Assembly (NCBI RefSeq): GCF_007748035.1
Contig: NZ_CP036278.1
Location: 1,364,001 to 1,428,000 of the forward strand
Direction of reading: 5' to 3'
Length of the DNA: 64,000 bases
DNA from: Aeoliella mucimassa
GTDB taxonomy: Bacteria > Planctomycetota > Planctomycetia > Pirellulales > Lacipirellulaceae
Part shown: in pieces, positions 37,144 through 55,892 of the stretch
Layout: every line of letters begins with the position of its first letter
Numbering within the stretch: the stretch's first letter is position 1
The notes under the pieces: generated by a model
What the model was told of the DNA's origin: nothing
Databases searched by the model: none
Seen by the model: the letters and a program-made list of their open reading frames with translations, nothing else
Position numbers and translations under genes: made by a program

Positions 37144-38046
37144 ATGGCCGACGCCCCTAACTACCTCGATCCGGCCGTGCTGGCCCAACTCGAAGGCCTG
37201 CAACTACGAGCAGCCCGGATTGTCGAGGGGTACGTCTCGGGCCTGCATCGCAGCCCTTATCAGGGGTTCTCGGTCGAATTTGCCGAGCATCGCGAGTACG
37301 CCCCGGGCGACGACCTGCGGTACGTCGATTGGAAGGTATTCGGCAAAACCGACAAGGTTTACCTAAAGCAATACGAAGAGGAAACCAACCTCATTTGCTA
37401 CCTGGTGCTCGACATTAGCGAGAGCATGCAGTACCGCAGCGAACTGGCGCCGCTCAGCAAGTTGGAGTATGCCCAGAGTGCGGCCGCAGCGTTGGCCTAC
37501 CTGGTAATCCGTCAGCAAGATAGCGTTGGTTTGGTGACCTTCGACGACGCGGTGCGGCAGATCGCCCGCCCGAGCTCCAGCGCATCGCACCTGTCGCAGT
37601 TGGTGCGGCTGATGGAAATGACCTCGGCCGAGAAGAAAACCCGCACCGGGCCGATCTTCCACGAGCTGGCCGAGCGGTTTACCCGCCGGGGCATCGTGTT
37701 CGTATTGTCCGACCTGTTCGACGACCCCGAAGAGCTGCTGGCCGGGCTCAAGCACTTCCGCCACCGTCGGCACGACGTGGTGGTGCTGCACACCTTTGAC
37801 CCCGCGGAGCTCGATTTTCCGTTTCAGCACGCGACGATGTTCCACGGACTCGAAGGCACCGGCGACCTGCTGGTCGAACCAGCCCAACTGCGTCGCGCCT
37901 ACCAGCAGGAGATCAACCGCTTCGCCAACCAGGTGCGAACCGGCTGCCTGGCCCAAGGGGCCGACTACGTACAGCTACGAACCGATATGCCGCTGAGCGT
38001 TGCGCTGTCGACCTACCTATCGCACCGCCGCCGACGCGTGCGGTGA
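37144..38046 (+). CDS. DUF58 domain protein (MoxR-associated type)
   Basis: A 300-residue soluble protein. The DUF58 signature REYAPGDDLRYVDWK is at 50-64 and it overlaps a von Willebrand A fold with MIDAS-like D90-I-S-E-S94. DUF58 proteins are usually encoded beside a MoxR AAA+ ATPase and Bat proteins and are thought to help assemble or activate envelope or metallo-enzyme complexes. No moxR gene is adjacent here: the gene upstream is the divergent acyltransferase. It is the first gene of the cluster running to 50318. Confidence 0.92.
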   Translation: MADAPNYLDPAVLAQLEGLQLRAARIVEGYVSGLHRSPYQGFSVEFAEHREYAPGDDLRYVDWKVFGKTDKVYLKQYEEETNLICYLVLDISESMQYRSELAPLSKLEYAQSAAAALAYLVIRQQDSVGLVTFDDAVRQIARPSSSASHLSQLVRLMEMTSAEKKTRTGPIFHELAERFTRRGIVFVLSDLFDDPEELLAGLKHFRHRRHDVVVLHTFDPAELDFPFQHATMFHGLEGTGDLLVEPAQLRRAYQQEINRFANQVRTGCLAQGADYVQLRTDMPLSVALSTYLSHRRRRVR

Positions 38047-38072
38047 GCTTTTACTACTACTTATGTTTTACT

Positions 38073-38232
38073 AACCACAGAGTTCACGGAGGACACCGAG
38101 GGGCGAGGCCAAAGCAAACGCGGTACAACTTGTTTCTGATGAACTTGCCCTCAAAGGATGAATCGTTTCCTGCATCGCTTTGTCAACTGACTCGCCAACG
38201 CCCTCCATATACTCCGTGCTCTCCGTGATTTA
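38073..38232. repeat. Inverted-repeat spacer (CACAGAG/CTCCGTG type)
   Basis: The left part 38073-38100 (ACCACAGAGTTCACGGAGG and on) is imperfectly complementary to 38201-38232 (CTCCGTGCTCTCCGTGATTT). The 211-base gap between the DUF58 and BatA genes is mainly this element, which looks like a dispersed intergenic repeat inserted in the operon. Confidence 0.5.
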
Positions 38233-38257
38233 TTCCTTCTTGCTCCATCCCTGATTC

Positions 38258-40486
38258 GTGATCTCAATCCCGCTCGCCTTTGGATTCGGAAACCTGGCCA
38301 TGCTCGGCTGGCTTGGGGCGGCGGCTGCGCCGATTCTGATTCACTTATGGATGCGGCACACCCATCGCGACACTCCGTGGGCGGCCATGGAGTTCCTGCG
38401 GCAAGCCATCCAGCGCAATTCACGGCGGCTGAAGCTTCAGCAATGGCTGCTGCTGGCGATTCGCACCTTGTTGCTGGTGCTGCTGGCGCTGGCCGCGACC
38501 AAGCCTTACTTGAGTAACTGGAACTTGCTCACCGGCGGACCGCAAATGCATCGCGTGCTGGTGATTGATGCGACGATGTCGATGCAGTACGCCGAGGGAG
38601 AGCAGTCGAGCTTTGCCCGGGCCAAGCAGCTTGCGACCGAGATGCTCGACAGCGGCCGCCCTGGCGATGTCTACTCGCTATGCGTGCTAGCCGAGACGTC
38701 GGCCGACATCGTGGCCGGCCCCTCGGCCGACCCGCGCCGCATCGCTGCCCAGGTGGGCTCGCTCGAAGCCACCTACGCCTCGGGGCGGCTAGGGGACGTG
38801 CTCCCTACGATCGCCGACTTGATGGACCAGGCCGAGACCAATCATCGCTCCCTGTCCGGGCACGAGGTGCTGTTCTTTAGCGACGCGGCCAAGCATACCT
38901 GGCAGTCGGCCACCGCAGGGCAGGCCGACCAGAGTACTTTGGCCGAGCTAACTGAACGGGCGCAGGTGACGCTGGTGGACGTGGGTCCCGCGGAGCCAAC
39001 CGGCGTTTCCATTCATCATTTGCGTGTCGCCAGCGGACTTTCGACTACGGCCGAACCGTTGCATCTGGTGGCCGACGTTACCAACTATGGCGATACCCCG
39101 GTGAGCGACTTGCCAGTGCAGTTGCTAGTGCAGGGAACCAGTATCGACGAGCAGGTGCTCACGCTGCCGGCCAACAGCACGTTGCCAGTGGAGTTCGACG
39201 CCCGCTTCACCGAGTCGGCCTGGCAGAGCCTTTCGGTCCGCACGCGGGGCGATGCCCTGGCGGCCGACGACCAAGCGTGGCTAGCGCTCGACGTCCGGCC
39301 TAGCGTACGAACGCTGGTGGTCGAAGGCACCCCCCGCGCGGCCAGGTACCTGCGGCACGCCCTCGACCCCGGCGGCGGCACCGCTTCGCCGGTACAGGTG
39401 GTGGTCGCTGCTGAAGGGGCATTGGTCGATCAGCCGCTGGTGGACTTCGACTGCATCTTCCTCTGCAACATCGCCCAATTCACTCCCGCCGAACGCACGT
39501 TGCTCGAACGGTACGTGCTGCAGGGGGGGAGCTTGATCTTCGTGCTCGGCGATCGCGTAATGGCCGATAGCTATAACCAACCGCTGGCTGCCTCTCCACT
39601 AGGCTGGGGCGACTGGGCCTTGGCTTCGGCCGCCGGTGATTGGGGGCTCACACTGCAATTGCCGCCAGTTGAATCTCCTGCAGCAGCGAATGCAGGGTGG
39701 TTGCCGGCCGGCGTCGGACCGCTCAAAGCCAACCAGCAGCCAGGCATCGATCCGTTGGAGTATCGTCATCCTATCGCCGCGGCGTTTCTCGATCACGAGC
39801 GGGCGGGATTGCTCTCGACTCCTGTCTCGCGGTACTTCCAGCTTCAGCCCACTAGCACTGCGCAGGTGGCTTTGGCCTTGCCCAACGGCGACCCGCTGCT
39901 GGTGACCAGCAAGCATGGGCAAGGCATGGTAGCCATGCTGGCGACGACCGCTACGCTCGACACGGTCGACCCCAATACCAATCAGCCTTGGACCCTGATG
40001 CCTGCCTGGCCGAGCTTCCTACCGATTGTTCGCGAACTGGTCGCTTTCGGGCTGGCGGCAACGTGGGCCGACGACCAAGCCGAGATCGGTCAGGCGATCG
40101 CCGGGCCGGTGCCAGCGAGCTTTTCGGCAACCACGCTCAAAGTCGAGCGTCCCGATCAGCAAACGGCCGAGGTGCCGATTATTCGCGAGGATGCGACCGC
40201 CAATTGGCAGTACGTGTCGACCAACCTGCCAGGCATCTACACGGCCGGCGACTCGCTCGCTCGCGTTGCGGTGAATGTACCCGCGATGGAAAGCGATCTG
40301 ACTCGCGTCGACCAATCGTTACTCCCCGAAGCAGTACAGGTGCAATCGGCCCCGCCCGATGCCTCGGTCGCTGGGGAGTCGCTGGCTACGAACACATCGC
40401 TCCATCGCACGTTCCTTTATTTCGTGCTGGTGTTGCTGTTGATCGAGCCGCTCATGGCGTGGTGGTTCGCAGGGAGGGCTGTGTAG
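38258..40486 (+). CDS. BatA-like membrane protein with von Willebrand A domain
   Basis: A 742-residue protein. It starts with the BatA/aerotolerance N-terminal helix (GWLGAAAAPILIHLWMRH) and a second helix (WLLLAIRTLLLVLLALAAT), then a vWA domain with a MIDAS variant D104-A-T-M-S108, a large beta-rich middle part and a glutamine-amidotransferase-like segment (FDCIFLCNIAQFTPAERTLL), and ends with a C-terminal helix (LYFVLVLLLIEPLMAWWFAG). The GTG at 38258 is preferred because family members begin just before the first helix; ATG 38300 would lie within it. The next gene starts 3 bases after its stop. Confidence 0.85.
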   Translation: MISIPLAFGFGNLAMLGWLGAAAAPILIHLWMRHTHRDTPWAAMEFLRQAIQRNSRRLKLQQWLLLAIRTLLLVLLALAATKPYLSNWNLLTGGPQMHRVLVIDATMSMQYAEGEQSSFARAKQLATEMLDSGRPGDVYSLCVLAETSADIVAGPSADPRRIAAQVGSLEATYASGRLGDVLPTIADLMDQAETNHRSLSGHEVLFFSDAAKHTWQSATAGQADQSTLAELTERAQVTLVDVGPAEPTGVSIHHLRVASGLSTTAEPLHLVADVTNYGDTPVSDLPVQLLVQGTSIDEQVLTLPANSTLPVEFDARFTESAWQSLSVRTRGDALAADDQAWLALDVRPSVRTLVVEGTPRAARYLRHALDPGGGTASPVQVVVAAEGALVDQPLVDFDCIFLCNIAQFTPAERTLLERYVLQGGSLIFVLGDRVMADSYNQPLAASPLGWGDWALASAAGDWGLTLQLPPVESPAAANAGWLPAGVGPLKANQQPGIDPLEYRHPIAAAFLDHERAGLLSTPVSRYFQLQPTSTAQVALALPNGDPLLVTSKHGQGMVAMLATTATLDTVDPNTNQPWTLMPAWPSFLPIVRELVAFGLAATWADDQAEIGQAIAGPVPASFSATTLKVERPDQQTAEVPIIREDATANWQYVSTNLPGIYTAGDSLARVAVNVPAMESDLTRVDQSLLPEAVQVQSAPPDASVAGESLATNTSLHRTFLYFVLVLLLIEPLMAWWFAGRAV

Positions 40487-40488
40487 CC

Positions 40489-42798
40489 ATGCCGAATCTC
40501 TGGCCATTGCTCGCCCAAGCCGCCTCGCAAACCGAACGCGAGATCTTCACCCATTGGACCTGGGCTCCGTGGGCCACGGTGCTATTCGCAGTGCTGGTGA
40601 TCGTCGGAATCGGCTACCTGTACTCTCGCGAGACCTCGCCGGCGGGCCGGGCTTATCGCGTGTTGCTGGCCACGCTACGCTTGGTGGCCATTGCGTTGGT
40701 GCTGGTGATGATCAGCGAGCTGATGGTTTCCACTTCGCAAACCGGTTTGCCGCGACTTGTGGTGCTGCTCGACCGCTCGGCTAGCATGAATCTGCCAGCT
40801 GCGAATGCGTCGAACGAAAGCCGACTCGACCTCGCCCGACAGTTGCTCGTGGCCGATCAGGCGGAGTGGATTCGGCAGCTCGAATCGCGGTACGAGATCG
40901 ACCTCCGTCTCGTCGGCGATGGCACCCAACCGATCGACTCCCTGGCGGACGATCAGCTGACAGGCGAACTCGAGACCCTCGATGCCGACGAGGCCGCCGC
41001 TCGCACTTCGCGACTCGGCGATGCATTATCGGCTGCCATCGATCAACGAGGCGATGTGCTACCGGCCGCGGTGGTGCTGCTGAGTGATGGTCGGACCACC
41101 GCTGGGCGTTCGCTCGACGAAGCCCGCCAGGTGGCTCGCCGCCGCGGGGTGCCGGTCTATGCGGTCGGTTACGGAACGGTCGACGAGCCAGCCGATTTGC
41201 GGATCGCCAACTTGTTGGCCCAGACCAATGCTTTTAAGGACGACCTGCTGGCCATCAACGTAACGCTCGAATCCACTTCGGCCGCAGGGCAAACCGCCCA
41301 ACTGCAAGTGCGCGACGTTGCCGAGAACAAGATTGTCGCCAGTAAGTCGGTGGAGATCGATACTGCCCGCTTCAGCAAGACCGTGCAACTCGTGGTCGAG
41401 CCTAACCGCTCGGGCGAAATCACTTACGTGGTCGAGGTAGCGCCGGTCGCCGACGAAACCGATCTGGCAAATAACCGAAAGCAGCACGTGGTCACGGTTC
41501 GTGACCAGGCGGTGCGGGTGTTGCTCGCGGCCGGCTATCCCAACTATGAGTATCGATACTTAAAGAACCTGCTCGACCGCGATCGCTCGTTCGAACTCAC
41601 CAGCTACTTGCAGGAAGCCGATCTCGATTCCGCATCGCAGGACGAAACGACCATTCGTCAGCTGCCGCTCGAGGAAGACGGCCTCGATCCGTTCGAGGTC
41701 ATCGTGCTGATCGATCTCAACCCGCGGTTGCTCCCCCCTCGGTGGTGGCAAAGCGTCGAGCGGCATGTGGTCGACCAAGGGGGCGGATTGGTGCTCGTTG
41801 CCGGGCCACGTTATTTCCCCTGGGCGTACACCAATACTTCGTCGGTAGCGACGCTCTCGCCGATCGTAGTCGGTGGGGCAGGGCGGTCTGGCGGCCAGAC
41901 CGACACTGGCTATCAACCGCAGCTTACTCCGCTGGCCGAAGAAACCACCTCGTTGCAGCTTGGTCCGACCGCGAGCGACTCGCAAACCATCTGGCGGCAG
42001 TTGCCTCCATTGTATTGGTACGTGGCTGCCGATACGCCGAAGCCGGCCGCCCGCGTGCTGGCGACGCATCCCACTGCCCGCACGACGACGGGGGCCCCGG
42101 TTCCGCTGATGGCCGAACAATACGTTGGTGCTGGTCGCGTGCTGTATCACGGGTTCGACTCCACCTGGCGTTGGCGTTTTCGCGTCGGCGATGTTTACTT
42201 CGCCCGCTACTGGGGGCAAACCCTGCGGCAGCTCGCCCGCTCCAAAGCGTTGAACCAGCAAACTCCGTTGCAACTGGTGCTCGACCGACCTCGCTACGAA
42301 CTGGGACAGCCGGTTCGCTTTCGGATGCGAGTCGATAGCAAACAGCTCGCGTCGCTCTCTGGTGGGCTGCAGGTGCTGCTAACTGCCGACGATCAACCGA
42401 ATCGCCGGGTGACGCTCAACCCCAGCAAGGCGATGCCGGAAGAATGGCAGGCGGTGCTCAGCGACTTGCCGCCTGGACAGTATCGGGCGACTGTGGCTGA
42501 CTCGCGACTGGAGTCGCCCCCCGAAGCGGTGGAGTTCCAAGTGATGACTCCGCCTGGGGAGTTCGCCGATACCACGATGAACCAGACCGGGCTCGAGCAG
42601 CTCGCCGAGCAAACCTACGGCAAGTTTTACATGGCCGATTCCTCCAATCAGTTGGCCGACGACCTGCCGAAGGCCCAGCGAGTGCCGCTCGAAACGTTGC
42701 CGCCGGTCGAGTTATGGAACCAATGGTGGATGCTGGCCGCGATTACCGGTTGTTTAAGCCTGGAATGGATTTTGCGAAAACGCCGGGCGATGTTGTAG
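40489..42798 (+). CDS. Membrane protein with vWA and glutamine-amidotransferase-like domains
   Basis: A 769-residue protein. Two membrane helices (about 28-44 and 62-80) precede a vWA domain with a full MIDAS D95-R-S97-A-S99, then a beta-rich region and a class I GATase-like domain (VRVLLAAGYPNYEYRYLKNL, VIVLIDLNPRLLP, GGGLVLVAG) without an obvious catalytic cysteine, and a C-terminal helix. ATG 40489 has AGGGAGG about 11 bases upstream; the open frame before it overlaps the BatA gene. It is the partner of the preceding gene and probably forms a membrane complex with it. Confidence 0.85.
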   Translation: MPNLWPLLAQAASQTEREIFTHWTWAPWATVLFAVLVIVGIGYLYSRETSPAGRAYRVLLATLRLVAIALVLVMISELMVSTSQTGLPRLVVLLDRSASMNLPAANASNESRLDLARQLLVADQAEWIRQLESRYEIDLRLVGDGTQPIDSLADDQLTGELETLDADEAAARTSRLGDALSAAIDQRGDVLPAAVVLLSDGRTTAGRSLDEARQVARRRGVPVYAVGYGTVDEPADLRIANLLAQTNAFKDDLLAINVTLESTSAAGQTAQLQVRDVAENKIVASKSVEIDTARFSKTVQLVVEPNRSGEITYVVEVAPVADETDLANNRKQHVVTVRDQAVRVLLAAGYPNYEYRYLKNLLDRDRSFELTSYLQEADLDSASQDETTIRQLPLEEDGLDPFEVIVLIDLNPRLLPPRWWQSVERHVVDQGGGLVLVAGPRYFPWAYTNTSSVATLSPIVVGGAGRSGGQTDTGYQPQLTPLAEETTSLQLGPTASDSQTIWRQLPPLYWYVAADTPKPAARVLATHPTARTTTGAPVPLMAEQYVGAGRVLYHGFDSTWRWRFRVGDVYFARYWGQTLRQLARSKALNQQTPLQLVLDRPRYELGQPVRFRMRVDSKQLASLSGGLQVLLTADDQPNRRVTLNPSKAMPEEWQAVLSDLPPGQYRATVADSRLESPPEAVEFQVMTPPGEFADTTMNQTGLEQLAEQTYGKFYMADSSNQLADDLPKAQRVPLETLPPVELWNQWWMLAAITGCLSLEWILRKRRAML

Positions 42799-46460: not shown

Positions 46461-47177
46461 ATGCTTTTACTCGAAGCCCGCCGACTCGCGTTGTTCCTGG
46501 TGGTCGCCATTGCTACGTGGAGCGTTCCGTCGCTCAGCCAGGCGGTGCCCGGGGAAGCGAAAGACAGCGCGCTCGAAGGCCTCGGCGATCAACTGCTCGA
46601 CGATAGCTTGCTCGAGGAGCTGATGAAGCAGCCCCCCGCGGTGCCTGCTCCCGCTCCGGAAGAAAGCGACGGAGAAGACTTCGGCCCGCAGGAATCGCCG
46701 CTCGAACGAATTGGCGACAAGATGAATGCTGCTGGGGAATTGATTCAATCGCAGAACACCTCCGGCGAGACCAAGGTGGTGCAGCAGCAGATCATCAGCG
46801 AACTGGATCAACTGATTGAGAAGCTCAATAAACAATGCAAGAACTGCAAAGGTGGGCAGTGCAACAAACCGGGCCAGCAGCAAACGCAGAAGAACTCCCC
46901 GAAGCCCGGCAGCAAAGGCAAGCCCACCTCGGCTTCGTCGGCCCAGTCGGCCGCTGCCGAGTCGCAAGCCACGAACTCTGGTGAGTCGCAAGGCACCCCG
47001 GGCGAGGCCACCGACGGCGAAGTGGTCAAGCAACTCTGGGGACAATTGCCCGAGCGGCTCCGTCAGCAATTGCTGCAATCGTCGGCCGATGAGTTCCTGC
47101 CAAAGTATCGTGAGCAGCTCCAGCAGTACTTCCGACGTCTGGCGGAAGAGCAAGCCGACACCCCGCCCGCCAACTAA
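46461..47177 (+). CDS. Small secreted protein of the vWA cluster
   Basis: A 238-residue protein. Residues 1-28 are a signal peptide ending SQA. A short acidic part (LLDDSLLEELMKQ and on) is followed by helices with a cysteine cluster (CKNCKGGQC near 132) and a Gln/Ser/Lys-rich low-complexity stretch, then a C-terminal helical part (LWGQLPERLRQQLLQS). No family name can be given. The cysteine cluster may bind a metal or form disulfides. It lies 46 bases after the DUF4175-like gene and 34 before the next gene. Confidence 0.7.
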   Translation: MLLLEARRLALFLVVAIATWSVPSLSQAVPGEAKDSALEGLGDQLLDDSLLEELMKQPPAVPAPAPEESDGEDFGPQESPLERIGDKMNAAGELIQSQNTSGETKVVQQQIISELDQLIEKLNKQCKNCKGGQCNKPGQQQTQKNSPKPGSKGKPTSASSAQSAAAESQATNSGESQGTPGEATDGEVVKQLWGQLPERLRQQLLQSSADEFLPKYREQLQQYFRRLAEEQADTPPAN

Positions 47178-47211
47178 GCACTCGACGAACGACCCAGGAG
47201 CATCCCCCCCT

Positions 47212-48234
47212 ATGAAGCCGCTCGTCTGCACCGTGGTCTTGCTATGCCTGTTGTCGCAACCGGTCATGGCTCAAGAGGGCGATACGGAACTCTCGGCGGC
47301 CGATATGATGGAGCCGGCCATCGACTCCATCGATCGTGGACTGGCCTACCTGGCGGCGAATCAGAACGAAGATGGCTCGTTTCGCTCCAGTAACATGGGA
47401 CGCAACCCGGCCGTGGTTGCGCTTGGCGGCATGGCCTTTCTCGCCGGAGGCAACACCCCCGGACGCGGCAAGTATGGCGAAGAGGTCAATCGCACGGTCG
47501 ACTTTCTGATCGCGAATACCCGCGCGGATGGATTCATCACCAACGCCGAAGGGGCAGGGCACGGGCCGATGTATGGGCATGGCTTTGCCACGCTGTTCCT
47601 CGGCGAAGTCTACGGCATGACTCCCCGCGAAGACCTTCGCGACAGCCTGGCCCGTTCGGTCGACTTGATCGTCCGCTGCCAGAACGAAGAGGGAGGCTGG
47701 CGCTACAATCCCGAACCGCTCGACGCCGATATCTCGGTCACTATTTGCCAGATCATGGCCTTGCGGGCAGCACGCAACGCTGGCTTGCACGTGCCGAAGG
47801 AAACCGTCGACAAATGCGAAGCCTACGTCAAGCAATGCCAGGAACCCGATGGCGGGTTTAGCTACATGCTGCAGAACCGCGGGAGCATGTTCCCCCGCTC
47901 GGCGGCCGGCGTCGTCGCCCTCTATAGCGCTGGCGTGTACGAAGGACCCGAGATCGAGAAGGGGCTGGTGTACGTCGACCGCTTCCTGCCCGACCCGCGG
48001 CAGATGTCGCGCGAGTCGCACTACTTCTATGGCCATTACTACGCGGTGCAAGCCATGTGGCACGCCGGCGGGCCTCGGTGGCAACGCTGGTACCCGGCTA
48101 TTCGCGAAACCCTGGTCAAGTCGCAACGCCCCGATGGCTCGTGGCAAGACTCCGTCGGGGCCGACTATGCCACGGCGATGTCGTGCATCATTCTGCAGAT
48201 TCCGAACAACGCCTTACCGATTTTTCAACGATGA
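47212..48234 (+). CDS. Secreted squalene-cyclase-like (prenyltransferase repeat) protein
   Basis: A 340-residue exported protein. Residues 1-21 are a signal peptide (cut after VMA-Q). The rest has four QW-like repeats (QNEDGSF, QNEEGGW, QEPDGGF, QRPDGSW), the sign of the alpha6/alpha6 toroid found in terpene cyclases, prenyltransferases and complement-like proteins. The DxDD catalytic motif of cyclases is not seen, so a binding or structural role is more likely than cyclisation. AGGAG precedes the ATG by 12 bases. Its stop overlaps the next gene's start (ATGA at 48231-48234), so the two are translationally coupled. Confidence 0.85.
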   Translation: MKPLVCTVVLLCLLSQPVMAQEGDTELSAADMMEPAIDSIDRGLAYLAANQNEDGSFRSSNMGRNPAVVALGGMAFLAGGNTPGRGKYGEEVNRTVDFLIANTRADGFITNAEGAGHGPMYGHGFATLFLGEVYGMTPREDLRDSLARSVDLIVRCQNEEGGWRYNPEPLDADISVTICQIMALRAARNAGLHVPKETVDKCEAYVKQCQEPDGGFSYMLQNRGSMFPRSAAGVVALYSAGVYEGPEIEKGLVYVDRFLPDPRQMSRESHYFYGHYYAVQAMWHAGGPRWQRWYPAIRETLVKSQRPDGSWQDSVGADYATAMSCIILQIPNNALPIFQR

Positions 48235-50318
48235 GTTTTGCTATTCGCGCGCTGGCCTGCACGATCGCACTCGGCGCAATGCTCGCGACGACCGCCCAGG
48301 CTGCGAATCAACTGGTGCTCACTTCCGGCGCTCGCACTGCTGGTCAGGTCGTATCGCTCAACGCCGGCACGCTTGTCGTCAACTCCGGCGACAACACCAG
48401 CAGCTACGGCCCCGGGGAGTGGCTCCGCTGGCAACATCCGGCCGACTGCGAACCTCGCCCGCAACTCTGGCTGCAAGGGCGAACCCATTTGGTCGCCAAA
48501 CGCGACTGGACCGGCAAGGTGCCGATCACCCTCAACCAGCAGACTGCAACCATCGATACCGCTTCGCTCGGCAAGATCACCATTCCCCGCAAGCAGTTGA
48601 ATTGTTTGTTGATCGAAGCCGCGAAGGAACCGCTCCGCAGCCAGCAGATTCTCGCTCAGGCGCAACAACCCGCGGATACCGATCGCGTCTGGCTGGCCGC
48701 TGGCGATCAACTCAGCGGCAAAGTGCTCTCGTTCAACGGTGTTACGCTCGAGTTCGAGTTCGCCGGCGGCAAAGTGCCGCTGTTGGCGAAAGACATCGCC
48801 GCGGTCGCGCTGGCATCGACTCCGCAGGCTCCCCAGGGCAGCCGCTATTTGGTCGGCATGGCCGATGGATCGCTCGTAGAATCCACCGAGGTCACGCTCG
48901 ATAGCGAACAACTGGTGCTCACCGCGCTTGGCGAATGGCGCACGCGCAAGATCGACCAGTTGGTCTTCGTGCAGTCGCTCGACGAGTCGATCGATTACCT
49001 CAGCGATCTGCAGCCGGTCGACTTTCGCCACACGCCCTACTTCACTGGTACCTGGCCGCTGGCGCGCGACCGAGCGCTCGCTGGTTCGCCGCTTCGTGCG
49101 GGGGGCAAGTCGTACGCCAAGGGGCTGGCCATGCACTCGGCCGCCCGCGCGGTGTATCGGGTGCCGGCCGGGGCGAAGCAGTTGCTCGCCGACGTGGCCA
49201 TCGACGACTCCACCCACCGCGGCGGTAGCGCCCTGTTTGCGGTGTATCGTGTGAACGCCGAAGGGGTGAAGCCCGCGTACAGTTCCGGCGTCGTCCGCGG
49301 CGGCGATGCTCCTCGTTCGGTTGCCGTCGATGTCGCCGGTGCAACGGCCGTGGTACTGGTGGTCGACTACGCCGAGGATGGCGACCAGCAGGATCACGCC
49401 AACTGGCTCGACGCGAGGTTCGTGCAAGTCGCAGCGAGCGAGCCGCCGCCAGCCGAACCCACGCCCGAGCCCACGCCCGACGCGACCAGCAAGCACGAAC
49501 CCCAACCGCTCGAACTGGCCGGGCTCGAGAACGTGTTTCAACTCACTCCCCGAGTCACCAGCGGTAGCGGACCAGCGACCGACCAGGCGTTTGCCTCGCT
49601 GGCCGAGCAGGGGATCACAACCGTGGTGAGTGTCGACGGGGCGAAGCCCGACATCGACCTCGCCCACAAGCATGGGCTGCGTTACCTCCACATTCCGATC
49701 GGCTACGACGGGCTCTCGCGCGAGGCCGAGCTGGCCCTCGCCCGCGTGATGCAGGAGACCGAGGGCCGCGTGTACATTCATTGCCATCATGGCAAGCATC
49801 GCGGGCCAGCGGCGGCGGCGATTGCCTGCCTTGCCGATGGTGCGCTCGACCCGGCGGCCGCCGCCCATGTGCTCGAGGTCGCCGGCACCAGCGAGAAGTA
49901 CCGCGGGCTCTGGCGCGATGTGGCCGAGTTCGCCCCGCCGAAGCCGGAGGAACAACTCCCCGAACTGGTCGAAACTGCCAGCGTCACCGGGCGCGTCGCG
50001 GCGATGTCGCAAATCGACATGGCCTTCGAGCACCTGACCGCGCTCGAGTCGAACGAGTGGCAAGCCCCGGCCGACCACCCCGACCTTGACCGCGCCGAAC
50101 AAGCCACGCTGCTCTGGGAAGGCTACCGCGAGTCGCAACGCTTCAGCGAGCAACAAGGCGAAGCCGACCTCGCGAAGCTCTTCGACCCATCGATCACCCA
50201 AGCCGAACAACTCCGCCAGGCCCTCGAACAAGGCGACGTCGCCAAAGCCAGCACGCTGATGACCGAACTAAAACAATCGTGCGCGACGTGTCACGAGGGG
50301 TATCGGAATAATCGGTAG
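48231..50318 (+). CDS. Exported NPCBM, tyrosine-phosphatase-like and cytochrome c fusion protein
   Basis: A 695-residue protein with a signal peptide (about 1-24). Residues 25-260 are beta-rich and unassigned. Residues about 263-401 are an NPCBM-type carbohydrate-binding domain (KSYAKGLAMHSAARAVYRV, ANWLDARFV). A Pro/Thr linker (404-426) leads to a dual-specificity-phosphatase-like domain with the full Cx5R loop H517-C518-HHGKH-R524 preceded by VYIHC and a possible general acid in LHIPIGYDG. The last about 110 residues are helical and end in the haem-binding CATCH at 684-688, seven residues from the C-terminus, as in cytochrome c'. All three parts would be periplasmic. It is coupled to the toroid gene. 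No known protein with this combination comes to mind. Confidence 0.82.
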   Translation: MSFAIRALACTIALGAMLATTAQAANQLVLTSGARTAGQVVSLNAGTLVVNSGDNTSSYGPGEWLRWQHPADCEPRPQLWLQGRTHLVAKRDWTGKVPITLNQQTATIDTASLGKITIPRKQLNCLLIEAAKEPLRSQQILAQAQQPADTDRVWLAAGDQLSGKVLSFNGVTLEFEFAGGKVPLLAKDIAAVALASTPQAPQGSRYLVGMADGSLVESTEVTLDSEQLVLTALGEWRTRKIDQLVFVQSLDESIDYLSDLQPVDFRHTPYFTGTWPLARDRALAGSPLRAGGKSYAKGLAMHSAARAVYRVPAGAKQLLADVAIDDSTHRGGSALFAVYRVNAEGVKPAYSSGVVRGGDAPRSVAVDVAGATAVVLVVDYAEDGDQQDHANWLDARFVQVAASEPPPAEPTPEPTPDATSKHEPQPLELAGLENVFQLTPRVTSGSGPATDQAFASLAEQGITTVVSVDGAKPDIDLAHKHGLRYLHIPIGYDGLSREAELALARVMQETEGRVYIHCHHGKHRGPAAAAIACLADGALDPAAAAHVLEVAGTSEKYRGLWRDVAEFAPPKPEEQLPELVETASVTGRVAAMSQIDMAFEHLTALESNEWQAPADHPDLDRAEQATLLWEGYRESQRFSEQQGEADLAKLFDPSITQAEQLRQALEQGDVAKASTLMTELKQSCATCHEGYRNNR

Positions 50319-54355: not shown

Positions 54356-55892
54356 GGGTGCCACTGGCTCCGCCCATTACTGTCCGGAATTAATCTTAAC
54401 CGATTCTGAACTTGCGCGGTGGGGAGTGGTGTGGTACGACATAGTCCATGCCTTCCCAGCGAGTTGCTAAAGACGAGCTACCAGTGTGGCCCGAGCAGGT
54501 CATTGGGGGGAAGTATGTCCGGCTTTTGGAGAAGTTTCTCAAACAACTCCGCTCGGAAGACGCCCACGGTAATCGCAAGTTATTTCTCGATGACGTGTTC
54601 GTAGCCTACCTGCTGGCGTTCTTCAATCCCACCATCCGCAGTTTGCGAACCATCGAAGATTTCAGCCAAACGGTACAGGCTCAGAAACACCTTTCGATTC
54701 GCAAGATCACTAGAAGTACGCTCTCAGACTTCAATCAACTGGCCGACCCCGAGCGATTGCAGCCGATTCTCGATGCCCTCCGCCGGCAACTTGCCCGCAA
54801 GTCAAAACGGCAATCGATAGGTGACGACGATCTCGACGAACTGCTCCAGCAGACCGTGGCCGTCGATGGCACGTTTCTCCCGGCCGTGGCCGAAGTCGCC
54901 TGGGCCATGTGCAATACGAACAATCATGGGGCGAAGAAGCATCGAGCGCGGGTGGATGTCCATTTGCCGGTGAGCACGTGGCTTCCCGAGGCAATCGTCA
55001 TTCCATCCCCTGGCCAGAGCGAGGCCGATTCAGCCATCGAACGGTTGCAGCCCGGTCGTATCTATCTGTACGACCGCGGCTTCATGAGTTTCGCGCTCTT
55101 GGCAGCGCACTACGACGACACACACGCGTTGCAATCGCACTTCGTGGCTCGTTATCGCCCAGCGGGGGGCAATTCGCCCACGCTGCGGGAAGTGAAAAGT
55201 CGCGAACTCACCGAAAAAGACAAAGCGGCCGGCGTGCTCAGCGATGGAGTGGGACATTTCAAGTCTTCGAATCCGAGCCGACATCGAGTTCCCCGAGTGC
55301 AGCTTCGCGAAGTCATCGTCGCTTGCGAAGAAAAGGGAAAACCGTCGCAACTGCGGTTGATCACCAACCTGCTCGATGTACCGGCGCACGTGATTGCCAT
55401 GCTGTATCGCTATCGTTGGCAAGTAGAACTGTTCTTTCGGTGGCTGAAGAGCTCTGCGAACTTCGGACACTTGATCAGCCACGCAAGCGAAGGGGTGCAA
55501 ACGCACTTCTACGTGGCGGTCATTGCCGTGTTGCTGATGTACCTGCACACCGGTTATCGACCGAGCAAGTACCTGTTCGCCCTAATGGGACAGGTCGGCC
55601 GCGGGGCGGCAACCCTGGAAGAGATCCTGCCGATCCTCCGCGAGCGAGAACGTCAGAACGAACTGGCCCGGCAGTCGGCCGCGCGGCGGAGCGAGAAAAA
55701 GAAACAGCAATCGACTTAGAGACGCTGCCACTCGGCCGCGATTCTCACGCTGCCGCCTGCGCAATGTGAAAGGAAAAAGGCGGCGAGTCTTGATCGCGTA
55801 AGCCAATCCATGCAATCATAAGACGCCGCGCAACACTCCCGGAATGCAAAGAACCGAACTCCGGACAGTAATGGGCAAAGCCAGTGGCACCC
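54356..55892 (+). mobile_element. IS4-family insertion sequence with 36-bp terminal inverted repeats
   Basis: The 1537-bp element is bounded by inverted repeats 54356-54391 and 55857-55892, which match at about 33 of 36 positions and start GGGTGCCACTGGCT. It contains one intact transposase gene. No target-site duplication is visible: the ten bases left (GATGTGGCCA) and right (GGCGATCCGC) differ. Confidence 0.88.
54448..55719 (+). CDS. IS4-family transposase
   Basis: A 423-residue DDE transposase. The first Asp is in AVDGTF (about residue 133), the second in YLYDRGF (about 209) and the Glu in YRYRWQVELFFRWLK (about 328), the Y-(2)-R-(3)-E-(6)-K signature of IS4. The length is normal for the family and the frame is intact, so it may be active. 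A basic tail rich in Arg, Lys and Gln ends the protein. Confidence 0.95.
   Translation: MPSQRVAKDELPVWPEQVIGGKYVRLLEKFLKQLRSEDAHGNRKLFLDDVFVAYLLAFFNPTIRSLRTIEDFSQTVQAQKHLSIRKITRSTLSDFNQLADPERLQPILDALRRQLARKSKRQSIGDDDLDELLQQTVAVDGTFLPAVAEVAWAMCNTNNHGAKKHRARVDVHLPVSTWLPEAIVIPSPGQSEADSAIERLQPGRIYLYDRGFMSFALLAAHYDDTHALQSHFVARYRPAGGNSPTLREVKSRELTEKDKAAGVLSDGVGHFKSSNPSRHRVPRVQLREVIVACEEKGKPSQLRLITNLLDVPAHVIAMLYRYRWQVELFFRWLKSSANFGHLISHASEGVQTHFYVAVIAVLLMYLHTGYRPSKYLFALMGQVGRGAATLEEILPILRERERQNELARQSAARRSEKKKQQST

Follow-up and report, generated by a model that had tools for sequence, protein, structure and literature searches.

A family of predicted exported proteins joining a Cys-x5-Arg phosphatase-fold domain to a c-type haem domain, with a fused member in Aeoliella mucimassa

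Cysteine-based phosphatases are sensitive to thiol oxidation, and we know of none that carries a covalent redox cofactor of its own. Some known phosphatases, among them PRL (PTP4A), an intracellular eukaryotic protein without haem, have a Cx5R loop in which neither Thr nor Ser follows the Arg. TpbA, the periplasmic dual-specificity phosphatase (DSP) of Pseudomonas aeruginosa, is described in excerpts of its report as having the loop HCKHGNNR, Asp105 as proposed general acid and a periplasmic substrate (PMC4409338). The DUF442 domain of Blh, for which sulfur transferase activity has been measured, is joined to an ETHE1-type dioxygenase and not to a haem domain in the excerpted text of its description (PMC5823870). 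Here, we analyzed a stretch of 64,000 nucleotides from Aeoliella mucimassa (contig NZ_CP036278.1, positions 1,364,001 to 1,428,000; the whole stretch is called the window below) and in it a gene whose translated open reading frame of 695 amino acids (Table 1) ends in a DSP-type phosphatase-fold domain followed by a c-type haem domain. The first of these domains is similar to TpbA in its DSP fold, in its predicted export and in the loop pattern HC-x-HG-x-x-R, but in the profile alignment TG follows the loop Arg of TpbA, and the solved TpbA chain is without a haem domain. It also matches PRL with a PDB profile E value of 7.9e-5. The second domain shares four helices with the bundles of cytochrome c′ and cytochrome b562 and, with cytochrome c′, the CxxCH motif in the last helix, while it differs from both in an invariant Met of helix A and in being joined to a phosphatase fold. 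A description of such a phosphatase-haem protein was not found in the open-access literature searched.

A preliminary description of the window, made from the letters alone, had noted a signal peptide, an HCx5RG loop with C518 and R524 and the motif CATCH at residues 684-688, all of which are present in the translated reading frame, where the loop reads HCHHGKHRG. The DSP-type fold with intact Cx5R loop and the C-terminal c-type haem site proved to be kept together throughout a large family. At E 1e-3, a profile built from 20 homologues (A1) had matches in 226 of the 392 genomes of the phylum, a count that also takes in partial and phosphatase-only matches. From a contig scan seeded with part of the loop, which yielded 437 relatives, the best 80 were used; NCBI taxonomy assigns 53 of them to Planctomycetota, 18 to Verrucomicrobiota, two each to Lentisphaerota and Sumerlaeota, one to Hydrogenedentota and four to no phylum, many being metagenome bins whose phylum labels may be wrong. 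These sequences indicate that the phosphatase-haem pair is old and widespread, with relatives in three phyla besides Planctomycetota and Verrucomicrobiota. By a simple rule, 112 of 119 distinct homologues have a hydrophobic stretch at the N-terminus that follows a possible start, and 23 of those 112 also have a lipobox-like motif, which suggests export. In four genomes the phosphatase match ends before the haem domain, at a contig end in G335 and G404 and at a contig start in G385 and G178; these were not counted as haem-less.

In the 115-row alignment of the family (A2), which includes loop-seeded rows so that its conservation of HCHHG is partly seed-driven, C518, R524 and M592 are present in all rows and CxxCH in 114 of 114, L073 being cut by its contig. 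A second count was therefore restricted to 169 loci found by BLAST or profile search only; leaving out L028 (an NPCBM-only locus) and L169 (100 bases) gave 167 rows, 160 of them distinct. All 160 carry C518, G521, R524, P489, Y492, M592, C684, C687 and H688. The His before the loop Cys occurs in 159, D469 is Asp in 158, and H523 and H520 are kept in 157 and 156 rows, respectively; position 519 varies more (His 119, Phe 37, Tyr 3, Glu 1). Both motifs on which the preliminary description had relied, C518/R524 and CxxCH, were thus recovered in every distinct unseeded homologue.

The phosphatase fold itself is predicted with confidence. An AlphaFold model of residues 403-695, computed with alignment A2 and holding both domains together, reached a mean predicted local distance difference test score (pLDDT) of 95.8 and a predicted template modelling score of 0.89. 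Foldseek against the PDB placed TpbA first (E 2.8e-6; template modelling (TM) score 0.74-0.75 to the target for 4r0s), followed by the DUF442 protein 3gxh and, further down, by Cdc14, VHR, Tk-PTP and PRL-1, a result which together with the model quality assigns the domain to the protein tyrosine phosphatase (PTP)/DSP fold. The profile of the phosphatase domain found 2m3v (E 8.5e-10) and TpbA 4r0s (E 3.8e-9) in the PDB. In the Pfam scan of the whole protein, NPCBM stands far over its cut-off (105.4 bits against 23.9), while the DSP-type phosphatase family Tc-R-P (residues 449-533, E 1e-5, 26.5 bits, cut-off 27) and Cytochrom_C_2 (residues 644-692, E 2e-5, 26.0 bits, cut-off 26.5) are borderline. 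Scanned alone, residues 403-695 match both just above cut-off (28.5 and 28.0 bits), and the PDB profile matches show that neither is a chance match. Among the A2 rows, matches at E 1e-3 were obtained with Cytochrom_C_2 in 86 of 115, with Tc-R-P in 79 and with PTP-SAK in 75.

The profile of the haem domain gave a PDB match to cytochrome c′ (E 1.6e-6) which covers the haem half only, and it aligns to cytochrome b562 variants across nearly its full length. Modelled alone, it is a four-helix bundle with a pLDDT of 94.9, for which Foldseek listed b562 variants, the Kuenenia Kusta0087/0088 complex and cytochrome c′ at a probability of 1.00 and TM scores of about 0.5-0.75, with E values all above 0.001. 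The CxxCH motif, found in 160 of 160 rows, lies near the C-terminus within helix 4 of the model, as in cytochrome c′. In both models Met592 is residue six of helix A and His688 stands four residues short of the end of helix 4. As these are the same bundle ends at which Met7 and His102, the haem ligands of cytochrome b562, are located, a Met/His haem is suggested, and we infer that His688 and Met592 would be the ligands of haem c. With HMMER, the b562 matches begin at profile position 22 or later, at least three residues past the Met, so that the pairing of Met592 with b562 Met7 is not proven by alignment. The ligation is relevant to a proposal of the preliminary description, namely that the state of the protein is linked to gas binding, given there as an alternative to haem redox. 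In this reading, a five-coordinate haem of the cytochrome c′ type would bind nitric oxide or carbon monoxide and thereby switch the phosphatase. This possibility draws on the profile matches to cytochromes c′, several of which bind nitric oxide according to their structure titles, but we consider it very improbable, because all 160 rows have Met592 in the distal helix, which suggests a six-coordinate haem and argues against a distal site without a sixth ligand, as far as can be judged from the alignment and a model that holds no haem. The nearly full-length profile match to b562, a cytochrome with Met/His haem, points in the same direction.

How tightly loop and haem are associated can be judged from relatives that have one and not the other. 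Seventy-five genomes with weak best A1 matches, 60 of which match at E 1e-6, were searched for relatives that have the phosphatase only, and around the best 30 of the 64 loci listed the flanking 1.5 kb was scanned on each side, or a shorter stretch where some contigs ended. The canonical DRTG loop is present in 28 of these 30, and none of the 28 has a CxxCH frame matching the haem-domain profile within 1.5 kb; near one of them (L188), a frame of 89 amino acids with CGGCH is unmatched by that profile. The other two of the 30 are L176 and L193. Three loci of distant relatives, L176 among them, have altered loops and a separate cytochrome c′-like gene directly downstream: L176 (HCHHGKHRGG), where the gene encodes a lipoprotein and begins about 80 nucleotides downstream, L151 (HCHAGRHRAS), with a gap of 83 nucleotides, and L152 (HCKNGKHRSA), where stop and start overlap. 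In a comparison among four sequences, these cytochromes matched the haem-domain profile at E 3.3e-11 (L151), 4.7e-10 (L152) and 8.7e-6 (L176). A Met is aligned with Met592 in the L151 and L176 cytochromes, and the first helix of that of L152 is unaligned. The phosphatase frame of L176 (reverse strand, 19-972) continues into a second, degenerate-looking phosphatase-like domain, which may be an assembly artefact; its N-terminus is at the contig end.

A quick tree of 92 rows shows a single change between haem-linked and remaining rows and groups L193, a locus discussed below, with the DRTG rows, the support of which is inconsistently given as 96 in the table and 28 in the Newick file. In a more careful tree of 90 rows, from which the two longest (L193 and L165) were left out and whose bootstrap was not settled, one branch separates the 28 DRTG rows from all others (bootstrap/Shimodaira-Hasegawa-like approximate likelihood ratio test 100/100) and another does so for the 59 fused rows (99/92), the split pairs lying in between; L159 forms a long branch. 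Taken from these comparisons, the altered loop and the haem go together, and the arrangements form an evolutionary series of lone DRTG phosphatase, gene pair, fusion and further fusion.

Since Cys, Arg and haem site are strictly co-constrained and the genes are fused or adjacent, the two domains probably cooperate. We see an even chance that the proteins are exported Cys-x5-Arg enzymes coupled to a c-type haem which acts as redox partner of the catalytic site. In this exported family of the Planctomycetes-Verrucomicrobia-Chlamydiae (PVC) bacteria and their neighbours, with its Cys-x5-Arg DSP-fold domain and C-terminal four-helix c-type haem domain, haem c would be attached in the periplasm with His688 and Met592 as ligands and would exchange electrons with Cys518 or an adduct of Cys518, and turnover or activity may vary with the redox state of the periplasm. 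As substrate, a molecule located at the cell envelope and carrying a phosphate or another oxyanion is probable. A more far-reaching version, which we put forward only tentatively, is that the family forms a class of exported haem enzymes not described so far, in which a change of the loop from DRTG to HR(G/S/A) went along with the acquisition of a Met/His c-type haem, and in which the thiolate would perform electron-coupled oxyanion chemistry and not plain hydrolysis.

Several observations speak against a coupled enzyme of this kind. Thr follows the loop Arg in none of the 160 rows (Gly 125, Ser 30, Ala 5; Gly in the window protein), and at position D493, which by comparison with DSPs would be the general acid and which is Asp in the window protein, only 99 rows have Asp (Lys 18, Ser 17, Arg 9, others 17). 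Because of these two features, ordinary phosphatase turnover appears to be in doubt, although the missing Ser/Thr, which PRL also lacks, bears on turnover and less on fold membership. That CxxCH is present in all 160 rows partly reflects selection, as most of them derive from matches extending over both domains, an effect which does not account for the invariant M592 and loop residues. L193 has an altered loop (HCHGGNHRAG), and a cytochrome was not found in its 19.5 kb, while L165 retains haem motif and Met next to a degenerate loop (TCETGRDRAA). The split rows L151 and L176 are placed on long branches of the careful tree. Finally, gene neighbourhoods are unconserved and so indicate no pathway: even the commonest neighbour family is limited to 15 of 80 loci, where its distance varies and it may lie on either strand, and no fixed gene partner was found among the 80 loci beyond close relatives.

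The absence of Thr after the Arg and the variable general-acid position would also fit a non-hydrolytic chemistry on sulfur, in which the Cys forms a persulfide or thiosulfonate, the haem takes up the electrons and the protein is a periplasmic sulfur transferase or oxidase related to the DUF442 domain of Blh with its measured activity. The overall fold is shared, the DUF442 protein 3gxg/3gxh is among the top PDB matches, and 83 of 115 A2 rows match NCBIfam Blh (ST/SDO) weakly, with TIGR01244 (sulfur transferase) matching 24 of 115 at E 1e-3. We nevertheless regard this explanation, though a serious alternative, as unlikely, given that the phosphatase TpbA is the closer match, that Tc-R-P and PTP-SAK are about as frequent among the same rows and that the loop of 3gxg is one residue shorter, while the window protein and all 160 aligned rows have the Cx5R spacing. 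Six-residue loops go with sulfur and seven-residue loops with phosphate, a rule for which a source was sought and not found. The same variability of D493, together with Gly as the most frequent residue after the Arg, could instead mean that the loop binds a phospho-ligand without turnover and that the haem merely carries electrons. Such an electron carrier seems decidedly unlikely to us, as the loop Cys, Arg and Gly are kept in every row, beyond the need of a mere binding site.

The putative coupled Cys-x5-Arg enzyme described above corresponds to the C-terminal part of the window protein, to which an NPCBM half has been joined. The preliminary description had rightly recognized this NPCBM domain (E 3e-30), the limits of which are residues 256-397 and not 263-401, and had stated that the three folds normally occur in separate proteins. 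This is true of NPCBM and not of the phosphatase and haem domains within their family. In a search with the whole protein among 196 genomes of the order, four of them from the genus of the window, the only match spanning both halves among those listed was that of the window genome; the list is ordered by score, so that any spanning match would be expected at its top. Residues of about 1-400 match NPCBM genes of Pirellulales in many of these genomes at 27-53% identity among the matches listed, proteins which differ from that of the window in lacking the phosphatase-haem unit in the same match. In two congeners, G095 (Aeoliella straminimaris ICT_H6.2) and G119, both halves are present as neighbouring genes, each with a separate signal peptide: the NPCBM gene ends directly past the domain, and the phosphatase-haem gene follows after 120 or 107 bp. 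In A. straminimaris only one stop separates the two genes, which lie in the same frame, and the window gene has a Pro-rich linker where the congeners have the stop, the 107-120 bp and the second signal peptide. The third congener, G131, gave a single weak match (E 2.7e-7), and other relatives with both matches listed have NPCBM and phosphatase-haem genes at different places of the genome.

As two congeners carry separate adjacent genes and other relatives distant ones, the three-way fusion is lineage-specific; the separate genes rule it out as an ancestral unit, and the comparison indicates that the NPCBM half is a recent addition. Judged by the loss of the second signal peptide, export of the phosphatase-haem half of the window protein now depends on the NPCBM half, which would supply the signal peptide and possibly an anchor to cell wall or glycan. 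That the parts are exported together would also agree with the three-domain protein being the working unit, with NPCBM targeting the phosphatase-haem enzyme to a glycan, and other members are likewise fused to further domains. By Pfam, a sulfatase precedes the unit in L161 (1608-3911, minus strand), as by sequence similarity to L161 in L162 (1007-3250, minus), and a 3-keto-disaccharide hydrolase with a GDSL lipase in L062 (8099-10798, plus). But the partners vary, since L160 (1915-4272, plus) has a Na-dependent nucleoside transporter and L165 (982-2973, minus) a Na/Ca exchanger, each encoded in the same frame as the unit and assigned by Pfam, the latter with the degenerate loop. With the fusion matched in the window genome only among the 196 searched and NPCBM a separate neighbour gene in two congeners, the three-domain unit of the preliminary description is most improbable. 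Carbohydrate- or polymer-related modules occur in three of the five fusion architectures, that of the window included, a number which permits no firm conclusion because such genes are common in these bacteria. Fusions were called only with a Pfam match on the extension, L162 being added by similarity; very long open frames such as L157 and L164 were rejected as fusions, since several look like unstopped GC-rich frames.

The features of the gene are collected in Table 1. Its ATG start codon and the stop codon of the upstream neighbour overlap, and a gene resembling this neighbour by eye precedes the NPCBM gene in the two congeners. Elsewhere in the window, consecutive DUF58, BatA and VWA genes upstream on the same strand (37144-42798) form a Bat-type (aerotolerance) operon, and a DDE transposase gene is located a few kb downstream (54448-55719).

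Table 1. Features of the phosphatase-haem gene and its upstream neighbour, in positions of the window.
Feature	Position	Strand	Basis
Whole gene: signal peptide, NPCBM, DSP-type phosphatase-fold domain and cytochrome c′-like domain	48231..50318	+	translation, Pfam
Apparent Sec signal peptide, residues 1-24 (...TTAQA)	48231..48302	+	sequence; cleavage site by eye
NPCBM domain, residues 256-397	48996..49421	+	Pfam PF08305, E 3e-30; genome search, same place
Pro-rich fusion linker, about residues 401-430	49431..49520	+	comparison with congeners
DSP/PTP-fold domain, about residues 434-566	49530..49928	+	Pfam, AlphaFold model, Foldseek, PDB profile matches
P-loop HCHHGKHRGP, residues 517-526 (C518, R524)	49779..49808	+	translation, alignments
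Four-helix cytochrome c′/b562-like domain, residues 574-695	49950..50315	+	profile matches, Pfam, model, Foldseek
Invariant Met592 of helix A, a candidate distal ligand of the haem	50004..50006	+	alignments; helix position from models
CATCH, residues 684-688, haem c attachment motif in last helix	50280..50294	+	translation, alignments
Upstream neighbour, weak squalene-hopene-cyclase/prenyltransferase-repeat matches	46969..48234	+	sequence matches

With members in several phyla and both active sites invariant, the family may serve as a test case for the redox control, or the redox re-use, of an extracytoplasmic phosphatase fold.

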